Shown: in pieces, positions 1 through 12,992 of the stretch
How positions within the stretch are numbered: position 1 is the first letter of the stretch
Layout of the letters: each line of letters begins with the position of its first letter
From: Sphingopyxis macrogoltabida
Lineage (GTDB): Bacteria; Pseudomonadota; Alphaproteobacteria; Sphingomonadales; Sphingomonadaceae
Assembly: GCF_001314325.1 (NCBI RefSeq)
Contig: NZ_CP009429.1
Location: 1,798,501 to 1,862,500, forward strand
DNA: 64,000 nt
Reading direction: 5' to 3'
Position numbers and translations under genes: made by a program
The notes under the pieces: model-generated
Database searches by the model: none
What the model was told of the DNA's origin: nothing
Seen by the model: the letters and a program-made list of their open reading frames with translations, nothing else

Positions 1-1066
1 GACACGGATTTTCAGGCCCGAGCACACTTACTCGACCATCCATTGCCTCGATCTCGGGCGGATCTCCGTCTGAAACATCGATCGCAAGGCCCATATCTAC
101 TACCGGAACAAGATAGTAGTAAGCGAACCGGTTCAAAAACATACGGCCATCGTGATCGTCGGTGCAGCCGAAAATTACATCGCATGATCGGAGTGCATCA
201 CGATTCTCCTTCGCACCGATCCATTCTTCGAAAGGCAATACCCTTACGCCCAGCCCCATTTGTGCAATATGAGCCGCGACGACGTTGACTTTGGAGTTCA
301 TACCATCGGCGTCGCACTGCGTGGCTCCGTGAAGCCGATTGAGATTACTGGCCTCGACGATATCGTTGTCGAACAGTGCGATTTGTCCAACGCCGAGCCT
401 CGCAAGTAACATGGCAAGGGCGCTGCCGGTGCCGCCGCAACCTACCACACCGACACGCATCCGCTTGAGATCACTATTGAGTGCATTCCCGAACGCCAAT
501 GCCTGGCGCGCTAGAACCGTAGAAGATTGGGCCGGGTCGGTGTCGGCAAACCAAAACCGAAGATCGCTTCCCCACGCCCGGATTGCGCGCAATTTTTCCC
601 AACCCTTGTTAGCGGGACGCAGCCACACTCGCCCAAAAAGCTGGTTCTCGCCAGCGAGAACCAGGCTAATCAATTTTGTGCCGGGACCATTGCGATTGAC
701 AGCGAGTTGAGCAAGGTCTTGCTCGTTTTCATCGTCCTGGCCCGAAAACTCGGCGAAACCGGACGGATGAGAGTGGACGATGGCCACGATGTGATTATTC
801 GCCTCGGCATCACGCAGAGCCCTCACATAGGAGTCCGTGAGCCAGCTAACATGAGTGCCGTCCGCGCTTACGATATCCTCGGGCGGAATCTCGCGAACGT
901 TCACGGATAGGAACTTCTCGTGTGACTCCCGATCCCACGGATCGCGTTGAATATCGGCAGAACTGAAAAACACGTACGCCGCATGCTCCTTGCCGTCATC
1001 GTGGCGGAGTAACGATTTCAGGCGCTCGAGATGCCGTTGTTGTAGTGTGGCACTGTACTGGGTCAT
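1..1066 (-). CDS. JAB (JAMM) protease - ThiF/E1 adenylyltransferase fusion, partial
   Basis: Incomplete: the frame is open from the ATG at 1066 to the window edge (355 residues seen). The start overlaps the stop of the E2-like gene as ATGA. The N-terminal half is a JAB/MPN domain: the zinc motif is His98-Ser-His100 followed by ten residues and Asp111 (HSHPSG...SGQD). The second half is a ThiF/E1 domain with a glycine-rich nucleotide loop (GCGGTGS, about 209-215) and the downstream Asp233, Asn241, Arg244 set typical of adenylating E1 enzymes. In known relatives the E1 half activates the C-terminus of a ubiquitin-like protein with ATP and the JAB half removes the modifier. The catalytic cysteine region is probably just past the edge (the last visible residues are ENPC). 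It is the last visible gene of a modifier/E2/E1 operon. Domain identification is confident; the target and biological role are unknown. Confidence 0.9.
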   Translation of the reverse strand, partial: MTQYSATLQQRHLERLKSLLRHDDGKEHAAYVFFSSADIQRDPWDRESHEKFLSVNVREIPPEDIVSADGTHVSWLTDSYVRALRDAEANNHIVAIVHSHPSGFAEFSGQDDENEQDLAQLAVNRNGPGTKLISLVLAGENQLFGRVWLRPANKGWEKLRAIRAWGSDLRFWFADTDPAQSSTVLARQALAFGNALNSDLKRMRVGVVGCGGTGSALAMLLARLGVGQIALFDNDIVEASNLNRLHGATQCDADGMNSKVNVVAAHIAQMGLGVRVLPFEEWIGAKENRDALRSCDVIFGCTDDHDGRMFLNRFAYYYLVPVVDMGLAIDVSDGDPPEIEAMDGRVSVLGPENPC

Positions 1067-1443
1067 GCGGCAACCAATAGGGCGTGCTCAACACGCTTGA
1101 GCATCGTCCAAATGCCGTCGATGCCAGGCCGCCAATCGTCACAATGGCGTGACCAGCGCTGCCAATTCTGGCCATTAAATATTACGGGTTGGTCCGCCGC
1201 GTTTGGATATTTGTTCCCAGTCCTCAGTTTCACCCAAGGGATCAGGTGGAACATGTCCGGCCGAACGTCAGGATATCCGTTAGGTATGAGGATGAGGACA
1301 TCCGCTCGCTCCGCGTCATACATCCCATCAGGTAATAGCCAGCCGCGAATGATAACGGCATTAGCATTCCCCTCCGTGAGTTCTTCGAAGCTAGTGCCCC
1401 TTGCTTGAAGGTACTCTAAATCCTCTGGCGGCAGAAAGCTCAT
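1063..1443 (-). CDS. E2-like ubiquitin-conjugating protein (prokaryotic E2 family E)
   Basis: 126 residues. It has the proline-rich strand of a UBC fold (GYPDVRPDMF, about 57-66) and the family-typical segment WQRWSRHCDDWRPGIDG near 94-110. The only cysteine is Cys101, next to His100, so it is the only possible thioester residue; the canonical E2 HPN motif is absent. Expected role: receive the activated modifier from the JAB/ThiF protein and pass it to a target. Its ATG directly follows the TGA of the ubiquitin-like gene, and its own stop overlaps the JAB/ThiF start, so the three are tightly coupled in translation. Family assignment rests on the C-terminal motif and the neighbours; whether Cys101 is catalytic is inference. 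Confidence 0.85.
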   Translation of the reverse strand: MSFLPPEDLEYLQARGTSFEELTEGNANAVIIRGWLLPDGMYDAERADVLILIPNGYPDVRPDMFHLIPWVKLRTGNKYPNAADQPVIFNGQNWQRWSRHCDDWRPGIDGIWTMLKRVEHALLVAA

Positions 1444-1689
1444 TCAGCCCTCCGTGGAAGTTTTCTTGCCGGTGAAAAATTTTTCAACGCCGGGCTGGGT
1501 GAGGTCAACGGATTGGTCATCCGCAATGGGGAGGTCTTCCGGTCCTGCGACGTCTTGCCAGACATTATAATTGGCAACGTCCACGCCGGCGAGATTTTTG
1601 ATCTGCAGCCCGGTGATGGTGTCCTGGCTCCAGTCGTACTTTTTACGGTCGATAAAGATGTGGTCGGGCTTGTTAGGCTTGTTCGCCAT
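1444..1689 (-). CDS. Ubiquitin-like modifier (multiubiquitin-domain family, single domain)
   Basis: 81 residues in one beta-grasp-sized domain, resembling the multiubiquitin family: an IFIDRKKYDW opening, a DLTQPGVEKFF segment near the end, and a free tail ending Thr-Glu-Gly. The protein stops immediately after this glycine, so no tail has to be clipped before activation. It has one Gly rather than Gly-Gly and one domain rather than tandem copies. Expected role: the protein tag activated by the neighbouring E1 and carried by the E2-like protein. A GGAG ribosome site lies 7 bases before the ATG. The next gene starts right at its stop codon. Identity is supported jointly by the sequence and the E2/E1/JAB neighbours. 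Confidence 0.88.
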   Translation of the reverse strand: MANKPNKPDHIFIDRKKYDWSQDTITGLQIKNLAGVDVANYNVWQDVAGPEDLPIADDQSVDLTQPGVEKFFTGKKTSTEG

Positions 1690-1704
1690 CGAAGTTCTCC
1701 TGTT

Positions 1705-1938
1705 TCAGCCTTTGGGGGGAAGGGGGTCGTTGCCGTGGCTGTCGCTACTTGCGATCCGGCCGTCACGATTGTGAATGCGAAATTCGGTTGACTGATTACG
1801 GCTGATCTCGCGGCCCCGATCGATCGCCTCGCGCTTCGTGTCGTGATGGCTGCTCGCGCGAGCGCCACCACCACGTTTCACATCCCATCCGCCATCCGGG
1901 TTGGGCACCACATGATGAGTCTTTGGTCCTTTGGGCAT
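1705..1938 (-). CDS. DUF2188 domain protein
   Basis: 77 residues with the DUF2188 hallmarks: HVVPNPDGGWDVKRGG at the start, SSHHDTKREAI in the middle, and a C-terminal RDGRI...DSHGNDPLPPKG. The start at 1938 is chosen because GGAG lies 6 bases upstream; GTG 1953 and ATG 1950 are in frame but leave that GGAG inside the gene. It is the first gene after the palindrome-bearing promoter and lies 15 bases before the ubiquitin-like gene, so it belongs to the conjugation operon. DUF2188 has no established function that I know of. Position suggests an accessory, target or regulator of the conjugation system; that is inference. Confidence 0.85.
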   Translation of the reverse strand: MPKGPKTHHVVPNPDGGWDVKRGGGARASSHHDTKREAIDRGREISRNQSTEFRIHNRDGRIASSDSHGNDPLPPKG

Positions 1939-1976
1939 CTTGTTCTCCATCACTGAAATCCGTTATTCTGCGAATC

Positions 1977-2013
1977 CGCTAATTAGCGTACTTCGATTTA
2001 TGCAAATAGGCAA
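1977..2013 (-). promoter_or_regulatory. Promoter with operator palindrome of the ubiquitin-like operon
   Basis: On the minus strand: -35 TTGCCT (2013-2008), 17-base spacer, -10 TACGCT (1990-1985). The 12-base perfect palindrome CGCTAATTAGCG (1977-1988) overlaps the -10. Twenty bases (1977-1996) are identical to 3123-3142 in front of the XRE gene, at the same distance from the -35. It lies 39 bases before the DUF2188 start. This geometry predicts repression by the neighbouring XRE protein. Confidence 0.78.
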
Positions 2014-2042
2014 TGAAATTTAATTTGATTTCTTTCAATAAC

Positions 2043-2762
2043 TTACCTGTTGAACAGCGATGGGCCAGCGTCGGCGGCACCAAGAACGCCAAGCTTCAAC
2101 AGGCGAATCCTAGCTGCGTCCGCCGAAACCTGAAATGCGGTTTGGACAGTCTTTATCAAAGCCTGCCCATGGCGCCCATTTATGCCAATGGTACCGAACA
2201 GGCCGTTTGCTTCCTGATAATCGCCAACAATCCGACGAATAAAGGAGGCCGGCATCAGGAATGCGCCGCAGGCATAGCCAGCCTGCCACTCCATCCAATC
2301 TGATTGGGACGCGTCCAAAATGCCATCACGTTTGCAAATCTGCTTATTGGCGTTGGGACTTCTTCGAAGAAGGTCGGCTCCCGGCGGCTCGATTTCCCAA
2401 AGGTAGGCATGGAAGTGCACATGCCCATATTCGTGGGTCAAGGTAGTCCGGAGCCGATTTTCGCGACGTTCATCAACAGAAAGCGCTTCGGCAATCTTAA
2501 CGTTGGGCTTTTTGCCCAGTTGAAATTCCGTAACCCCTTCTACATCATCCCCGTAGATTAAAAGGTCAGCATATGGATCGAAATCCTCCGTGTCCCTTTC
2601 GATCAGCAGGGTTAGATCGTCCGTAGAGACAGGGAATTCGATCTTCCCGTATCTGTCGCGAAGAAACTGGGTGATGATTGACTCGCATTCGCGATCAAGT
2701 TCTTCCGACTTGTAGTGGGGTCTTTGTGAGAAACGCCCTGTCATGTCCCGCACGTATCTCAC
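2043..2762 (-). CDS. ImmA/IrrE family metallo-endopeptidase
   Basis: 239 residues. It has the zinc-protease motif HEYGH (about 110-114) and the downstream family motif EWQAGYACGAFLMP, whose glutamate is the expected third zinc ligand. The start is GTG 2762, with GGAG 6 bases upstream and 9 bases after the XRE stop, so the two are co-transcribed. Known relatives (Bacillus ImmA, Deinococcus IrrE/PprI, CBASS CapP) cleave a partner XRE-type repressor in response to DNA damage or single-stranded DNA. By analogy this protein probably cleaves the adjacent XRE repressor and releases the ubiquitin-like operon. The family call is firm; the signal and substrate are inferred. Confidence 0.9.
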   Translation of the reverse strand: MRYVRDMTGRFSQRPHYKSEELDRECESIITQFLRDRYGKIEFPVSTDDLTLLIERDTEDFDPYADLLIYGDDVEGVTEFQLGKKPNVKIAEALSVDERRENRLRTTLTHEYGHVHFHAYLWEIEPPGADLLRRSPNANKQICKRDGILDASQSDWMEWQAGYACGAFLMPASFIRRIVGDYQEANGLFGTIGINGRHGQALIKTVQTAFQVSADAARIRLLKLGVLGAADAGPSLFNR

Positions 2763-2771
2763 CGATCGCTC

Positions 2772-3098
2772 CTAATGCCTATTCGGTTTGCCTCGGAACG
2801 CCATCATGGCCGTGGTAAACTGCGTTTCAGACAATCTTTCGTTTCGAACGTCCGCAGGAAATCGGCCGGCGAGGTAGTAAAGCCAGTCAGCCTTGATGTT
2901 GAGCACCTCGGCAAACTGCTGAACCATTCGATCGGATGATGGGCTACGCCGATCATGTTCGATATCGTTTAAATACTGTGGCGAAATGGGTTCCTCATCC
3001 TCACGGAAAATCCTCGACGCCAGCTCCTTCTGGCTCATACCCAAAGCCTTCCGTGCTTGGCTAATTGCTCGGCCAAAAGTCTGATCTCTATCCTTCAT
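2772..3098 (-). CDS. XRE-family (HTH) transcriptional repressor
   Basis: 108 residues. The N-terminal helix-turn-helix covers about 8-65 (ISQARKALGMSQKELASRIF...ISPQYLNDIEHDRRSPSSDRM), followed by a short C-terminal arm that could carry a cleavage site and dimer contacts. It precedes the ImmA-like peptidase by 9 bases. A 16-base perfect palindrome covers the -10 of its own promoter and recurs in the promoter of the conjugation operon, so it most likely represses itself and that operon. The arrangement matches the CapH/CapP, ImmR/ImmA and DdrO/IrrE pairs. Repressor activity is inferred from the palindrome placement. Confidence 0.88.
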   Translation of the reverse strand: MKDRDQTFGRAISQARKALGMSQKELASRIFREDEEPISPQYLNDIEHDRRSPSSDRMVQQFAEVLNIKADWLYYLAGRFPADVRNERLSETQFTTAMMAFRGKPNRH

Positions 3099-3120
3099 AA
3101 CGCCCTTGAAATGATGCTTA

Positions 3121-3159
3121 TACGCTAATTAGCGTACTTCGAATTTGAGTTTGCGTCAA
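3121..3159 (-). promoter_or_regulatory. Promoter with operator palindrome of the XRE-ImmA operon
   Basis: On the minus strand: -35 TTGACG (3159-3154), 17-base spacer, -10 TACGCT (3136-3131). The 16-base perfect palindrome TACGCTAATTAGCGTA (3121-3136) covers the whole -10. It shares 20 bases with the promoter at 1977-2013 with identical spacing. The transcript leader would be short, since the start codon is at 3098. Autorepression is the simplest reading. Confidence 0.8.
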
Positions 3160-3276
3160 GGTTGGTGGTTTGCCCTGCGTGCTGTGGCGTCCGCTCAGCC
3201 ACCCTGAATGTCCGCTTCCCGCGATCTAGGTCCGAAAACGGACAGTCTCAAACCGGCCATAAGCGACGATTTCCCG

Positions 3277-3313
3277 AAAAAGAACGCCCGCCCGATCGAA
3301 ATCGGACGGGCGT
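3277..3313 (-). terminator. Rho-independent terminator after the AhpD-like gene
   Basis: A hairpin with a 12-pair stem, one mismatch and a CGAA loop lies between 3284 and 3313. On the minus strand it is followed by TCTTTTTC. It sits 117 bases past the stop of the gene at 3430-3876 and fits that gene's transcript. Confidence 0.7.
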
Positions 3314-3429
3314 AAGATGAAGAGCCGTGTTTCCTGAAAGGAAGAGCCCTCCTGGGTCGCATGGCGCGGTTAGCCTCACTGGTTGACCTGATATTGTACC
3401 GCGACGCCAAAAAGAGCAGCGCTGACACC

Positions 3430-3876
3430 TCAGGGCTTGGCCGCAACCGGAAGGCGGAATGGTGCGCCGAGCCTGTTGAAGGCGTTCATCGCCGCAATCG
3501 CGATCGTCAGGTCCACGAGGTCTTTCGGTTCGAAGGCTTTGGCGGCCGCTGCATAGGCCTCGTCGGAAGCATGGGTCTCGCTGACGCGCGTGACTTCCTC
3601 CGCCCAAGCCAGTGCTGCACGATACTGGTCGGGGAAGAGATGCGGGACTTCATGCCACACCGGAAGGAGCGCGACCTTGTCGATCGACATGGTCTTGAGC
3701 AGGTCCCGGGTATGCAGATCGATGCAGTGCGCGCATCCGTTGATCTGGGAGACCCGGAGGAAGACGAGGTGGACCAGTTCTTCAGGGAGGGCCGTGTTGT
3801 TGGTGACATAATGGTGCACACCGTAGAGCGCCTTCGCTCCGGCGGGAGCGACTTCGGACCAATTCAACCGATTCAT
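3430..3876 (-). CDS. Carboxymuconolactone decarboxylase (AhpD-like) family protein
   Basis: 148 residues, all-helical, with the peroxidase-type motif CAHCIDLHTRD (about 48-58), whose Cys-x-x-Cys and downstream His are the active site of AhpD-like members. These small proteins usually reduce peroxides or serve as alkylhydroperoxidase partners; true decarboxylases of the superfamily lack the Cys pair. A GGAAG ribosome site precedes the ATG. It stands alone: the terminator lies at 3277-3313 and a long gene-poor stretch lies upstream. The family is certain; the substrate is unknown. Confidence 0.9.
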   Translation of the reverse strand: MNRLNWSEVAPAGAKALYGVHHYVTNNTALPEELVHLVFLRVSQINGCAHCIDLHTRDLLKTMSIDKVALLPVWHEVPHLFPDQYRAALAWAEEVTRVSETHASDEAYAAAAKAFEPKDLVDLTIAIAAMNAFNRLGAPFRLPVAAKP

Positions 3877-4458
3877 CTGATCTTCCTTTCTTCCTGAGCC
3901 GATATCGGCGTCACCATGACTGACGAGCGGGAGCCCGCCGCTGTGACATCCCGAGCAAATAAAAATGCCGGTTCGACCGGATGTTGGCGAAAGGGATTGG
4001 AAGAAAGGTCCGAGATTGATCTAGCGCAGTGTACCGATCAGGCCGCGCCAGGAAACGAGGGGCCACGGCATTGTCGTACCGCTACAGAATGTCCGCTTAT
4101 CTGGAATCGGAGTTGAAAGCCGCCTGGCCCCAATCGGCCAGTCATACCCATCGAATGCCTCCCCGTTGGTTCGCTTCCCCGATCTCGCACCTGCCAACTT
4201 CAGGCCTCAAATCTTCTGGTGATAAATAGATTGTATTGTTGTCGATCTGCGATGGAGTACAAAAGAAAATATTGGACAATCGCAGCGAACAATGGCAGAT
4301 GAGTTGCACGGACTGAATCATGAGTTCAGATGCGCGGTGGAGCCGTGTGGGTCCGAAATTACGCGGACGTAATTTGAAAATATATTTCAAATACATAGGT
4401 TTAACTTAACAAAACCACCCTGTCCGCCAGAGCGCGGCCCGTCGCGGGAGAGGACGCC
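3877..4458. other. Gene-poor intergenic stretch with two overlapping inverted repeats
   Basis: No convincing coding region. The second half is AT-rich compared with the surroundings. Two palindromes lie about 65 bases before the serine hydrolase: AAATTACG-4 bases-CGTAATTT (4356-4375) and TTTGAAA-5 bases-TTTCAAA (4373-4391), sharing three bases. A weak -35-like TTGAAA (4374) lies inside them. They could be an operator for the hydrolase gene; no regulator is identified nearby. Confidence 0.5.
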
Positions 4459-9599: not shown

Positions 9600-10539
9600 C
9601 CCCCGCACCCTCGCCGAAACGCGCGCCATCGACTGGCTGATCCGCCAGCGCGATCCCGGCTTTGCCGATTGGGACGGCTTTGCCGACTGGCTCGCCGAAG
9701 ACCCCGGTCATTCGGCGGTGTATGACGCGATGGCGAGCCTCGACCTCGACCTCGACGCCCTGCCGAAAAGTGCGCCCGAGCCGGCCAAGCCGGCGGTCGT
9801 CATCATCCCGCACGACGCCCCGCGCCGCCCGTCGCGCCGCGCCTGGTTCGGTGGCGCGATCGCCGCCGCACTCGTCGGCGCCGTCAGCCTGTCGAGCCTC
9901 GGCCTGTTCGGCGACGCGAACCGGATCGAAACTGCGGCGGGCGAGCATCGCACAATCGCTCTCGCCGGCGGCTCACGGATCGAGATCAACGGCGGTTCGG
10001 TGATCGAACTCGACAAGGAACGCCCGCGCTTTGCCCGGCTCGCGTCGGGCGAGGCGATGTTCCATGTCGTCCACCGCGACGGCGACCCGTTCGTCGTCGA
10101 GGCGGGCGCGTCGAAGATCGTCGACCTCGGCACCGCCTTCAACGTCGTGCGGCGAAACCGCGCGACCTCGGTCGCGGTTTCCGAGGGGGTCGTCGTCTAC
10201 AATCCGGGCAAGGACAATGTCCGCATGAATGCCGGCAAGGCGATCGACGCACACGACGACGACAAGGCGCCACCCGCAGTCCGCGATGTCGATGTCGGCA
10301 GCGTCGGCGGTTGGCGCACCGGCCTGCTCGTCTACAACGGCACGCCGCTCACCATCGTCGCCGAAGATCTGAAACGTACCGCCGGTCTCGACATTTCGGT
10401 CGCGCCCGAGGCGGCCGGCGTGTCGTTCCGCGGCGCCCTGATCGTCGACAAAAATCGCGCCCGTACCGTCGCCGACCTCGCCGCGCTGTCGGGAACGAAG
10501 GCGGCACGGCAGGGCGACGGCTGGACCTTGACCCGCTGA
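9589..10539 (+). CDS. FecR-domain anti-sigma/sigma regulator
   Basis: 316 residues. A cytoplasmic N-terminal sigma-binding domain (DUF4880-like, about 8-48: AIDWLIRQRDPGFADWDGF) comes first. One membrane helix follows at about 85-107 after a basic patch (RRPSRRAW). Then come the periplasmic FecR domain (AAGEHRTIALAGGSRIEI...VEAGASKIVDLGTAFNV) and a C-terminal STN-like segment (LTIVAEDLKRTAGLDISVAPE). The gene begins inside the end of the sigma gene and stops 2 bases before the receptor start, so the three are one operon. It should relay the loaded state of the receptor across the inner membrane to the sigma factor. Confidence 0.92.
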   Translation: MPADPRTLAETRAIDWLIRQRDPGFADWDGFADWLAEDPGHSAVYDAMASLDLDLDALPKSAPEPAKPAVVIIPHDAPRRPSRRAWFGGAIAAALVGAVSLSSLGLFGDANRIETAAGEHRTIALAGGSRIEINGGSVIELDKERPRFARLASGEAMFHVVHRDGDPFVVEAGASKIVDLGTAFNVVRRNRATSVAVSEGVVVYNPGKDNVRMNAGKAIDAHDDDKAPPAVRDVDVGSVGGWRTGLLVYNGTPLTIVAEDLKRTAGLDISVAPEAAGVSFRGALIVDKNRARTVADLAALSGTKAARQGDGWTLTR

Positions 10540-10541
10540 CG

Positions 10542-12992
10542 ATGACGCGCGCCCTGCCCCTTCTGATTGCAGCCGCACTGACGAGCGTTCCGGCGCAGGC
10601 GCGTGCGGCCGAGGAGCGCGCATTCGATGTGCCGAGCGGCAGTCTTTCGGGCTCGCTGCCGATCCTCAGCCGACAGGCCGGGGTCAGCATCAGCGTCGCC
10701 GATGCCGGGCTCTGGCAATCGCGGGTGAAGCCGGTGCGCGGAAGGATGAGCGTCGAAAAGGCGATCAAGCGGATGCTCGCCGGATCGGATGCCCGCATCG
10801 TCCGGGTCAGCGCGACGAGCTGGCGGATCGAGCGCCGCCCCCCGCCGCCGAAGGTCGCGCGCCGCGCCACCTCGCCGCCGCACGCCGCGCCGCCGCCGAG
10901 AACGCGGGCGCCGGACAATCTGGTCGCCGGGCCCGACGACGAGATCATCGTCACCGCCTCGAAGACCGACATTCCCTACGCAAATTATGCGGGCGTCGCC
11001 ACCGTTCTCGATGGCGACGATTTGGCGTTCGGCGGCGAGCGCGGGATGGATTCGATCCTGTCGCGTATGGCGACCGTTTCCTCGACCCATCTCGGTTCGG
11101 GGCGCAACAAGCTGTTCATCCGCGGCATTGCCGATTCGAGCTTCACCGGCCCGACGCAGGCGACGGTCGGACAATATCTAGGCGATATCCGCCTCAGCTA
11201 TAATGCGCCCGATCCCGACCTTCGCCTCTACGACATCCAGAATGTCGAAATCCTCGAAGGACCGCAGGGCACGCTCTACGGCGCGGGCTCGCTCGGCGGC
11301 ATCATCCGCGTCGTCCCGACGCCGCCCGATCCCGACCGTCAGACAGTACAGGCGATCGCCGGCGTCTCGCTGACACAGCACGGCGACCCCGGCGGCGACC
11401 TCGGAGCGATTGCCAACGTCCCGCTCGGCGACAACGGCCATGCGCTGCGCCTTGTCGGTTATATGCTCAGCGACGGCGGCTATATCGACAATCCGCTGCG
11501 CGGCCAGAACGACGTCAATCGCGTCAACGTCTATGGCGGCCGCGGCACGCTGCGCCTCGATCTCGGCGACGACTGGACCGTCGACCTCGGCGGCGTCTAT
11601 CAATCGATCACGTCCGAAGACGCGCAATATGCGGATCGCGACGCACCGCCGCTGATCCGCAACTCGATGGTCGAGCAGAATGCCAGGGCGCGCTACGGCC
11701 TCGGCACCCTCGTCGTGATGAAGGACTGGGACGGGCTGCATTTCCGTTCGTCGAACGCCTACGTCAATCACCGCCTGTTCGAACGGTTCGACGCGACCGC
11801 ACCGGACAATCCGCCGCGCATCCTCGACCAGAATAACGACACGCGCATGTTCGTCAGCGAAACGCGCCTGTCGCGCCCCTTCCACAATGACTTCGGCTGG
11901 GTCGTCGGCGCCAGCTTCCTCGACAACCGCACCCGACAGAACCGCGAGATCGGCGATGCCTTCACCCTGACGCCGCTGACCGGGGTGACCAACAGCATCA
12001 CCGAATTCACCGGCTATGTCGAGACGACGGTCGAGATCGTTCCCCGTGTCATCGCCTCGGGCGGCCTTCGGCTCTCCCATGCAAGGCTGGGCGGCAGCGG
12101 AGAGGATGTGGCATTCGACATCGCCTACGCCGGGCGCGAGGTTACGGCGCACCGGACGGAAACCGACCTCCTGCCCTCGGCGTCGTTGCTCGCATCGCCG
12201 CTGACCAACGTCACCCTCTATATTCGCTATCAGGAAGGCTTCCGTCCCGGCGGTCTTGCCGTGGACAGCCAGTTCGTCCGTCGCTTCCGTAACGATCAGG
12301 TCCAGACATGGGAGGCGGGCGTCCGCTTCGGCGAAAAGGGCCGGACGCCGTTCGACGCGAGCCTTGCCGTCTCGCGCAGCCGCTGGCGCGATATCCAGGC
12401 CGATTTCATCGATGCCAATGGCTTTCCCACTACCGCCAATATCGGTGACGGGCGGATCACCAGCATCACCGGCGCCTTCGCGGTGCGACCGACCTCGGCG
12501 CTGTCGTTCGAAATCGGTGCCGTCTACAACCACAGCCGCGTTTCCGAACTGTTCGACGCCGAACTGCGCGCCATTGCGATGCGCGCCGCCGCCATGGATG
12601 GGCAGGTCGGCGTGACGATCCCGCAAGCGACGCTGCTCGCCCGGCTGGGGCAAATCCCGAATGTCGCCCGCTACGCCGTGCGCGGCTCTTTCAACTATGC
12701 CGCACCAATGGGCGACGAGGACTTCCGGCTGAACGGCTGGGCCAATTATGTCGGCCCGTCGCGGCTCGGCATCGGGCCGATCCTCGGCGAGGGTCAGGGC
12801 AAATATCTCGACACCGGCCTCGCCGCGCGGATCGGCGACGACCGGCGCGGCCTGTCGCTGACCCTGACCAACCTGTTCGACGCCCGCGGCAACCGTTTCG
12901 CGCTCGGCACGCCCTTCGTCGAAGGCAGCGCCGGCTTCCTTACTCCGCTGCGCCCACGCACGCTGCGGCTAGCGATCGATATCGCTTATTGA
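10542..12992 (+). CDS. TonB-dependent receptor with N-terminal STN signalling domain (FecA type)
   Basis: 816 residues from ATG 10542. A signal peptide (LPLLIAAALTSVPAQARA) is followed by a secretin/TonB N-terminal (STN) domain (about 25-85) that contacts FecR. After a Pro/Arg-rich linker come a TonB box (EIIVTASKTD, about 128-137), a plug domain with the LEGPQGTLYG motif, and a 22-strand-type barrel ending in LRPRTLRLAIDIAY. Expected role: outer membrane uptake of a ferric siderophore or other scarce nutrient plus transcriptional signalling through the adjacent FecR and sigma factor. The substrate cannot be read from the sequence. Confidence 0.93.
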   Translation: MTRALPLLIAAALTSVPAQARAAEERAFDVPSGSLSGSLPILSRQAGVSISVADAGLWQSRVKPVRGRMSVEKAIKRMLAGSDARIVRVSATSWRIERRPPPPKVARRATSPPHAAPPPRTRAPDNLVAGPDDEIIVTASKTDIPYANYAGVATVLDGDDLAFGGERGMDSILSRMATVSSTHLGSGRNKLFIRGIADSSFTGPTQATVGQYLGDIRLSYNAPDPDLRLYDIQNVEILEGPQGTLYGAGSLGGIIRVVPTPPDPDRQTVQAIAGVSLTQHGDPGGDLGAIANVPLGDNGHALRLVGYMLSDGGYIDNPLRGQNDVNRVNVYGGRGTLRLDLGDDWTVDLGGVYQSITSEDAQYADRDAPPLIRNSMVEQNARARYGLGTLVVMKDWDGLHFRSSNAYVNHRLFERFDATAPDNPPRILDQNNDTRMFVSETRLSRPFHNDFGWVVGASFLDNRTRQNREIGDAFTLTPLTGVTNSITEFTGYVETTVEIVPRVIASGGLRLSHARLGGSGEDVAFDIAYAGREVTAHRTETDLLPSASLLASPLTNVTLYIRYQEGFRPGGLAVDSQFVRRFRNDQVQTWEAGVRFGEKGRTPFDASLAVSRSRWRDIQADFIDANGFPTTANIGDGRITSITGAFAVRPTSALSFEIGAVYNHSRVSELFDAELRAIAMRAAAMDGQVGVTIPQATLLARLGQIPNVARYAVRGSFNYAAPMGDEDFRLNGWANYVGPSRLGIGPILGEGQGKYLDTGLAARIGDDRRGLSLTLTNLFDARGNRFALGTPFVEGSAGFLTPLRPRTLRLAIDIAY

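Follow-up and report, generated by a model that had tools for sequence, protein, structure and literature searches.

A Bub-type ubiquitination-like operon downstream of a putative CapH/CapP-like switch in Sphingopyxis macrogoltabida

What pathway is encoded by a compact set of ubiquitin-conjugation genes in Sphingopyxis macrogoltabida, and what controls it? The genes lie at the start of a 64,000-nucleotide stretch of contig NZ_CP009429.1 (G000:C1:1798501-1862500; hereafter, the window), where a small DUF2188 protein, a ubiquitin-like protein (Ubl), an E2-like protein, and a JAB-E1 fusion are encoded directly downstream of an XRE-family regulator and an ImmA-type peptidase of the M78 family. 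This arrangement, proposed in the initial annotation, is borne out by Pfam matches: all six genes are present, in the claimed order and on the minus strand, and a seventh completes the set (XRE, M78, DUF2188, BubA, BubB, BubCD, DUF6527). The locus is very probably a Bub (bacterial ubiquitination-like) operon, comprising DUF2188, BubA, BubB, BubCD, and DUF6527, under a CapH/CapP-type repressor-peptidase switch whose mechanism we infer. Its features within the window are as follows (promoter boxes were read from the sequence, and both operators recur in a near-identical copy, L004).

3121..3136, no strand: candidate palindromic operator TACGCTAATTAGCGTA covering the XRE promoter's -10 box
2772..3098, minus strand: XRE/HTH_3 repressor (CapH-like), 108 amino acids (aa); Pfam HTH_3, 2.9e-10; PADLOC capH, 4.3e-6
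2043..2762, minus strand: M78 ImmA/IrrE-type zinc peptidase (CapP-like), 239 aa, HEYGH motif; Pfam Peptidase_M78, 6.9e-5
1977..1990, no strand: second candidate operator copy (CGCTAATTAGCGTA on the plus strand) covering the -10 box from which DUF2188-Bub would be transcribed
1705..1938, minus strand: DUF2188 small protein, first operon gene; Pfam DUF2188, 6.3e-25; PADLOC PDC-S16, 4.3e-37
1444..1689, minus strand: BubA, one-domain Multi_ubiq Ubl, 81 aa, C-terminal STEG; Pfam Multi_ubiq PF14452, 1.2e-17
1063..1443, minus strand: BubB, Prok-E2_E family E2-like protein, 126 aa; Pfam PF14462, 3.8e-46
2..1066, minus strand: BubCD, JAB-E1 fusion, N-terminal 355 aa within the window; ThiF, 1.3e-41; Prok-JAB, 1.5e-9

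The E1 gene is cut by the window edge; to the left, where the initial annotation had advised looking for the E1 C terminus and further operon members, BubCD is completed at 473 aa (L003:14145-15566), and a DUF6527 gene (PF20137, 4.6e-15) follows with a 4-bp overlap. The reading frames had been described as overlapping or abutting, which holds from the Ubl gene through the E2 gene to the E1 gene but not for DUF2188 and the Ubl, which are separated by 15 bp; the gap between the peptidase gene and the operon is about 90 to 100 bp. The DUF2188 frame is open from a GTG at 1953, but most homologues begin at a position equivalent to the ATG at 1938, making the latter the more likely start.

Assignment to the Bub class is carried by the two enzymes. 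In phmmer searches of the PDB, the best solved relative of the E1 is Citrobacter BubCD (6.2e-41, residues 50-427) and that of the E2 is Citrobacter BubB (7.2e-15, residues 4-118). As in the Citrobacter operon (PDB 9ea4, 9eae), a Ubl gene lies directly upstream of the E2 gene and DUF6527, which we take to be a Bub component, is part of the operon, and 92 of 98 surveyed loci have a DUF6527 match; the present locus differs in that its one-domain BubA is preceded by DUF2188. The initial annotation had pointed to Bil (bacterial ISG15-like) operons and to Cap2/Cap3 as known settings of such gene sets, but the nearest E1 and E2 are Bub proteins. A Bil operon was considered and rejected: the Multi_ubiq-type Ubl is shared with Bil, and its matches to multi-ubiquitin chains include Ubl-BilA (8u38, 4e-11), but no Bil-named chain occurs among the E1 and E2 matches listed. 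Type II CBASS (cyclic oligonucleotide-based antiphage signaling system), likewise rejected, shares E1 and JAB chemistry, and the E1 matches Cap2 weakly (5.1e-6); here, however, the JAB domain is fused in front of the E1, and no CD-NTase (cGAS/DncV-like nucleotidyltransferase) is found among the PADLOC matches listed for the seven operon and seven flanking proteins scanned, in keeping with the earlier view of a cyclase-free conjugation operon. A nucleotidyltransferase-HEPN protein is encoded about 10 kb away (L003:2953-3975).

Conservation in related loci is informative about the chemistry. Across 95 E1 sequences, one of them the window's, conservation extends to the JAMM residues (H98, H100, and D111) and to those of the adenylation site. 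Cys355 and Cys358 are present in 83 each, Cys451 in 85, and Cys454 in 77, and no column between residues 359 and 450 holds more than 26 cysteines; Cys355 and Cys358 are replaced in the aligned Citrobacter BubCD. In the alignment of 94 E2 sequences, Ser98 is invariant and His100 nearly so (93/94), while Cys101 occurs in only 6, and there is no conserved cysteine (at most 23 in any column). The lack of a conserved E2 cysteine, together with the conserved serine, suggests that BubB probably acts through a non-thioester intermediate, and such an intermediate has been described for Bub. Of 94 loci, 79 carry an (S/T)T(E/A)G motif within the BubA frame. Ubl and E2 share a single frame in 31 of 96 loci, and in the fused proteins inspected the motif falls at the Ubl-E2 junction, suggesting, by inference from sequence, that the JAB domain frees the modifier from such fusions; BubA of the window is already a separate protein with a STEG end.

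The evidence for a switch lies in the two regulators and in a sequence shared by two promoters. The helix-turn-helix protein adjoins an M78 zinc peptidase that scores 23.1 bits against a Pfam cut-off of 22 and carries the HExxH motif as HEYGH; its H109, E110, and H113 are invariant in 35 aligned sequences, and its predicted structural model is closest to CapP. The XRE promoter has a -35 box TTGACG at 3154-3159 and the DUF2188-Bub promoter a -35 box TTGCCT at 2008-2013, each with 17-bp spacing; a candidate repressor site is found at the controller's own promoter and at that of the operon, as expected of a CapH+CapP controller. The 20-mer TCGAAGTACGCTAATTAGCG, the longest word common to both promoters in L004, is present in both window promoters too; its core CGCTAATTAGCG has exactly two sites genome-wide, those two promoters (the reversed pattern has one site), so that the "shared promoter architecture" first noted takes the form of one specific candidate operator covering both -10 boxes. 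Among 65 loci whose M78 peptidases belong to the same branch (Bub loci included), the operator occurs within 110 bp after the peptidase gene at ≤3 mismatches in 58, with ≤2 mismatches in 33 and ≤1 in 8; the background at ≤3 mismatches is 29 of 4,889 windows, true sites before the regulator among them. It lies 42-64 bp after the peptidase gene in 49 of those 58. All seven genes recur, identically ordered, on a RefSeq-annotated Rhizobium phaseoli plasmid, where the operator is exact before DUF2188 and at ≤3 mismatches before the regulator.

A repressor-peptidase pair is also a frequent neighbor of related operons. The window's E2 retrieved 80 Bub loci, of which 78 with at least 1.5 kb upstream were used (L030 and L040 were dropped). 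An M78 match with HExxH lies within 3.6 kb upstream in 71 of these, 49 of them with an adjacent XRE match, and 1.5-5.6 kb downstream in 4; with loci reduced at 90% E1 identity, the counts are 45/49 upstream and 1/49 downstream. The association that the initial annotation advised looking for across genomes is therefore found: strong among loci close to the window's type, it weakens at greater distance. Single-linkage clustering at 35% identity splits the M78 proteins into nine groups, suggesting more than one origin of the association. A CapH/CapP-like switch over a cyclase-free Ubl operon, as originally envisaged, is thus supported by the CapP-like model, the common operator, and the frequency of M78 upstream of related Bub operons.

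Several results weigh against this assignment. PADLOC matches of the pair are weak, both for capP (1.7e-7, positions 59-154 of 242) and for capH, whereas the M78 proteins of other Bub loci (L006, L036, L053, and L060) match capP at 8e-57 to 2e-66. Three of the 71 upstream M78 matches (L052, L057, and L065) are large helicase-type proteins, and in a sample of 15 Bub loci from the order (leaving out L105, a copy of L005, and L121 and L122, which lack an E2 match) M78 is upstream in only 6 (5 with XRE) and downstream in 2. The PDB search with the Ubl matched no chain named BubA; the M78 branch mostly accompanies a payload other than Bub (49 of 51 IMG/VR loci) and is not Bub specific; and, as stated in PMC13373217, Bub has not been demonstrated to protect against phage. 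The contrast between weak capP/capH matches here and strong capP matches in other Bub loci marks the XRE-M78 pair, as judged by these profiles, as a branch that is diverged relative to CapH/CapP, and three relatives within it also match the two models weakly (9e-9 to 4.5e-10).

How does this controller compare with known ones? Against CapH+CapP (Thauera CapP, PDB 7t5t), the pair stands out by its weak PADLOC matches, its co-directional placement with the operon, and an operator that is present in two copies. IrrE/PprI of Deinococcus governs a chromosomal damage regulon with DdrO, while the controller described here appears to be local to one operon. The initial annotation knew of no such combination, but CapW or CapH+CapP accompany 219 of 544 Bub operons and CapK+CapS 59 of 544, according to PMC13373217. 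Within that source, CapK+CapS (kinase plus STAS-wHTH) and CapW (WYL) are likewise damage-responsive regulators placed before Bub operons, but without an M78 peptidase. The pairing is therefore known as a class; it is the exact switch sequence and the extra small protein DUF2188 that look new. Neither the diverged controller branch nor its DUF2188 partner was found in the literature searched, although the main Bub papers lay outside it, making this weak evidence of absence; a search on DUF2188, judged by title, returned nothing on this subject.

DUF2188 follows the domain number of the Ubl: of 18 loci whose Ubl has a single domain, 10 have it, against none of 76 with two or more (Fisher p 4.8e-9, uncorrected for relatedness; one locus without a Ubl match and the duplicate L105 were left out). 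In L027 it comes after DUF6527 rather than first, and the family is common in general (1,353 proteins found).

The controller is not confined to Bub. Searches with the M78 alignment found 53 IMG/VR loci (not deduplicated), in none of which a Bub gene was detected; an XRE match lies beside the peptidase in 47, and the other six have less than 100 bp upstream. In 51 of them the sequence extends 1.5 kb or more past the peptidase gene; of these, 49 have a ~390-aa gene within the next 3.5 kb, 47 a ~315-aa gene, and 6 DUF2188; over all viral loci, DUF2188 follows the controller without Bub in seven. Scanned representatives of the ~390/~315-aa unit match no Pfam or PADLOC family (in the example at L127:6825-8012 and L127:7987-8931, plus strand, the first gene is phrog_37634, of unknown function). 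Genome searches gave eight further matches besides the window's genome and G262 (Bub locus L005): seven, L189-L195, carry this unit (the first gene of L193 is split over two frames), and in L188 the gene is a different one. The seven branch loci without the operator include three of these genomes (L193-L195). On three plasmids examined, the controller stands before Bub, DUF3892, or a JAB operon that includes DUF7665 and weakly matches ThiF; the last, on a Paraburkholderia plasmid (L178:5883-8780), continues from the controller through a 172-aa protein, DUF7665, Prok-JAB, and the weak ThiF match, and is possibly another Ubl pathway. The branch is rare (4/298, 7/398, and 2/385 genomes, the window's genome counted each time), and, since 50,697 records of isolated phages yield no match, the term prophage-like follows the IMG/VR label.

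We tentatively propose, as a reading rather more apt to fail than to hold, that XRE, M78, and an operator that usually follows the peptidase gene by 42-64 bp form a portable "controller cartridge," diverged from CapH/CapP, on exchangeable payloads: DUF2188 plus Bub, a second JAB/E1-type operon, DUF3892, and the unnamed ~390/~315-aa unit in prophage-like elements. DUF2188 would often travel with the cartridge and stand in for the N-terminal Ubl domain missing from one-domain BubA. Were this correct, the operator would serve as a key for finding undescribed damage-induced immune units, of which the 390/315 pair would be the first; it marks payloads without a family name in the searched libraries and offers a simple route to more controlled units. 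The locus is of interest for this operator, for a controller that is both diverged and portable, and for a payload that has no name.

The cassette itself appears mobile. L004, a contig of a Sphingopyxis metagenome-assembled genome, carries it at 99.2% identity over 4.5 kb (L004:6184-10713), and the sequence beyond the XRE side differs from the window's genome, which points to recent transfer. L004 continues with an intact 578-aa PADLOC dCTPase-family gene (5e-157, L004:10463-12199). In the window's genome the dCTPase gene after the Bub operon is in two pieces (L003:13230-13481 and 10389-10676, minus strand) that match residues 1-84 and 483-578; the middle is missing, and between the pieces lie multi-copy elements that we read as IS3-type insertion sequences. 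Within the order, 19 of 396 genomes have PF14462; the E2 is found on 97 plasmid records, of which 53 are conjugative.

What would the switch do? At rest, XRE would occupy both operators (TACGCTAATTAGCG), holding down expression of both the regulator pair and the Bub genes; a damage signal, which for CapP is single-stranded DNA according to PMC13373217, would activate the M78 peptidase, and XRE would be cut. The E1 would then adenylate the C-terminal STEG of BubA, E2-like BubB would pass BubA to a target, and JAB and DUF6527 would act in Ubl processing or tag removal, with anti-phage or stress protection as the probable result. As a whole, this putative switch mechanism is plausible, and a compact, intact operon with a precisely placed candidate operator makes it readily testable.

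Other explanations differ mainly in what the switch serves. The XRE-M78 pair could be a prophage or integrative-element switch captured before Bub, its induction serving the mobile element rather than a damage-triggered defense. The 53 Bub-free IMG/VR loci, the finding that 58 of 65 branch loci have the operator behind the peptidase gene whether or not Bub follows, and two integrases left of the window would all fit such a capture, but it accords poorly with an operator that, in genomes from more than one order, lies inside the promoter of Bub, with the failure to match any isolated phage record, and with the several M78 subfamilies upstream of Bub, which suggest repeated recruitment; we consider it improbable. 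Somewhat less remote, though still unlikely, is that the operon serves stress response or protein quality instead of anti-phage defense, with a switch that answers DNA damage from any source. This is compatible with a switch-controlled Bub operon and concerns only the last step; the neighboring PADLOC dCTPase gene, the near-identical cassette in another genome together with the sporadic spread of PF14462, and the DUF2188 match to PADLOC PDC-S16 (PDC presumably denoting a phage-defense candidate) fit defense genes. That the operon is a degenerate relic might be read from the broken deaminase gene downstream and its insertion sequences, but all Bub genes and both regulators are full length with conserved motifs, and the stretch is 99.2% identical to the L004 copy, leaving this reading very hard to credit.

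The surveyed loci also yielded observations of their own. L057:3990-7418, L052, and L065 encode M78-like proteins of 1117-1142 aa, co-directional with and directly upstream of Bub, and that of L057 matches PADLOC GajB (UvrD helicase); the M78 of L060 is a full capP match. In many Rhodobacteraceae-type loci (e.g., L063:6712-7290 and L075:3563-3976), proteins of ~192 and ~137 aa, whose clusters span 18 and 12 loci, are encoded between M78 and Bub. GNAT-like genes (below the Pfam cut-off) and ribbon-helix-helix genes lie near XRE/M78 in 22 and 20 loci (e.g., L022:3952-4590 and L038:7147-7389). Downstream of Bub, eight loci (L021, L026, L033, L034, L038, L040, L043, and L046) have a ~364-aa HELGH gene and a ~207-aa gene whose sequence we read as resembling dCTP deaminase. 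In the window's genome, a zeta-toxin-like kinase (L003:9578-10318) and two tyrosine integrases (L003:33-2748) lie left of the operon, and the right flank (window 3252-4000, L003:17752-18500) has a second copy, 93% identical, at G000:C1:2260680-2261430.
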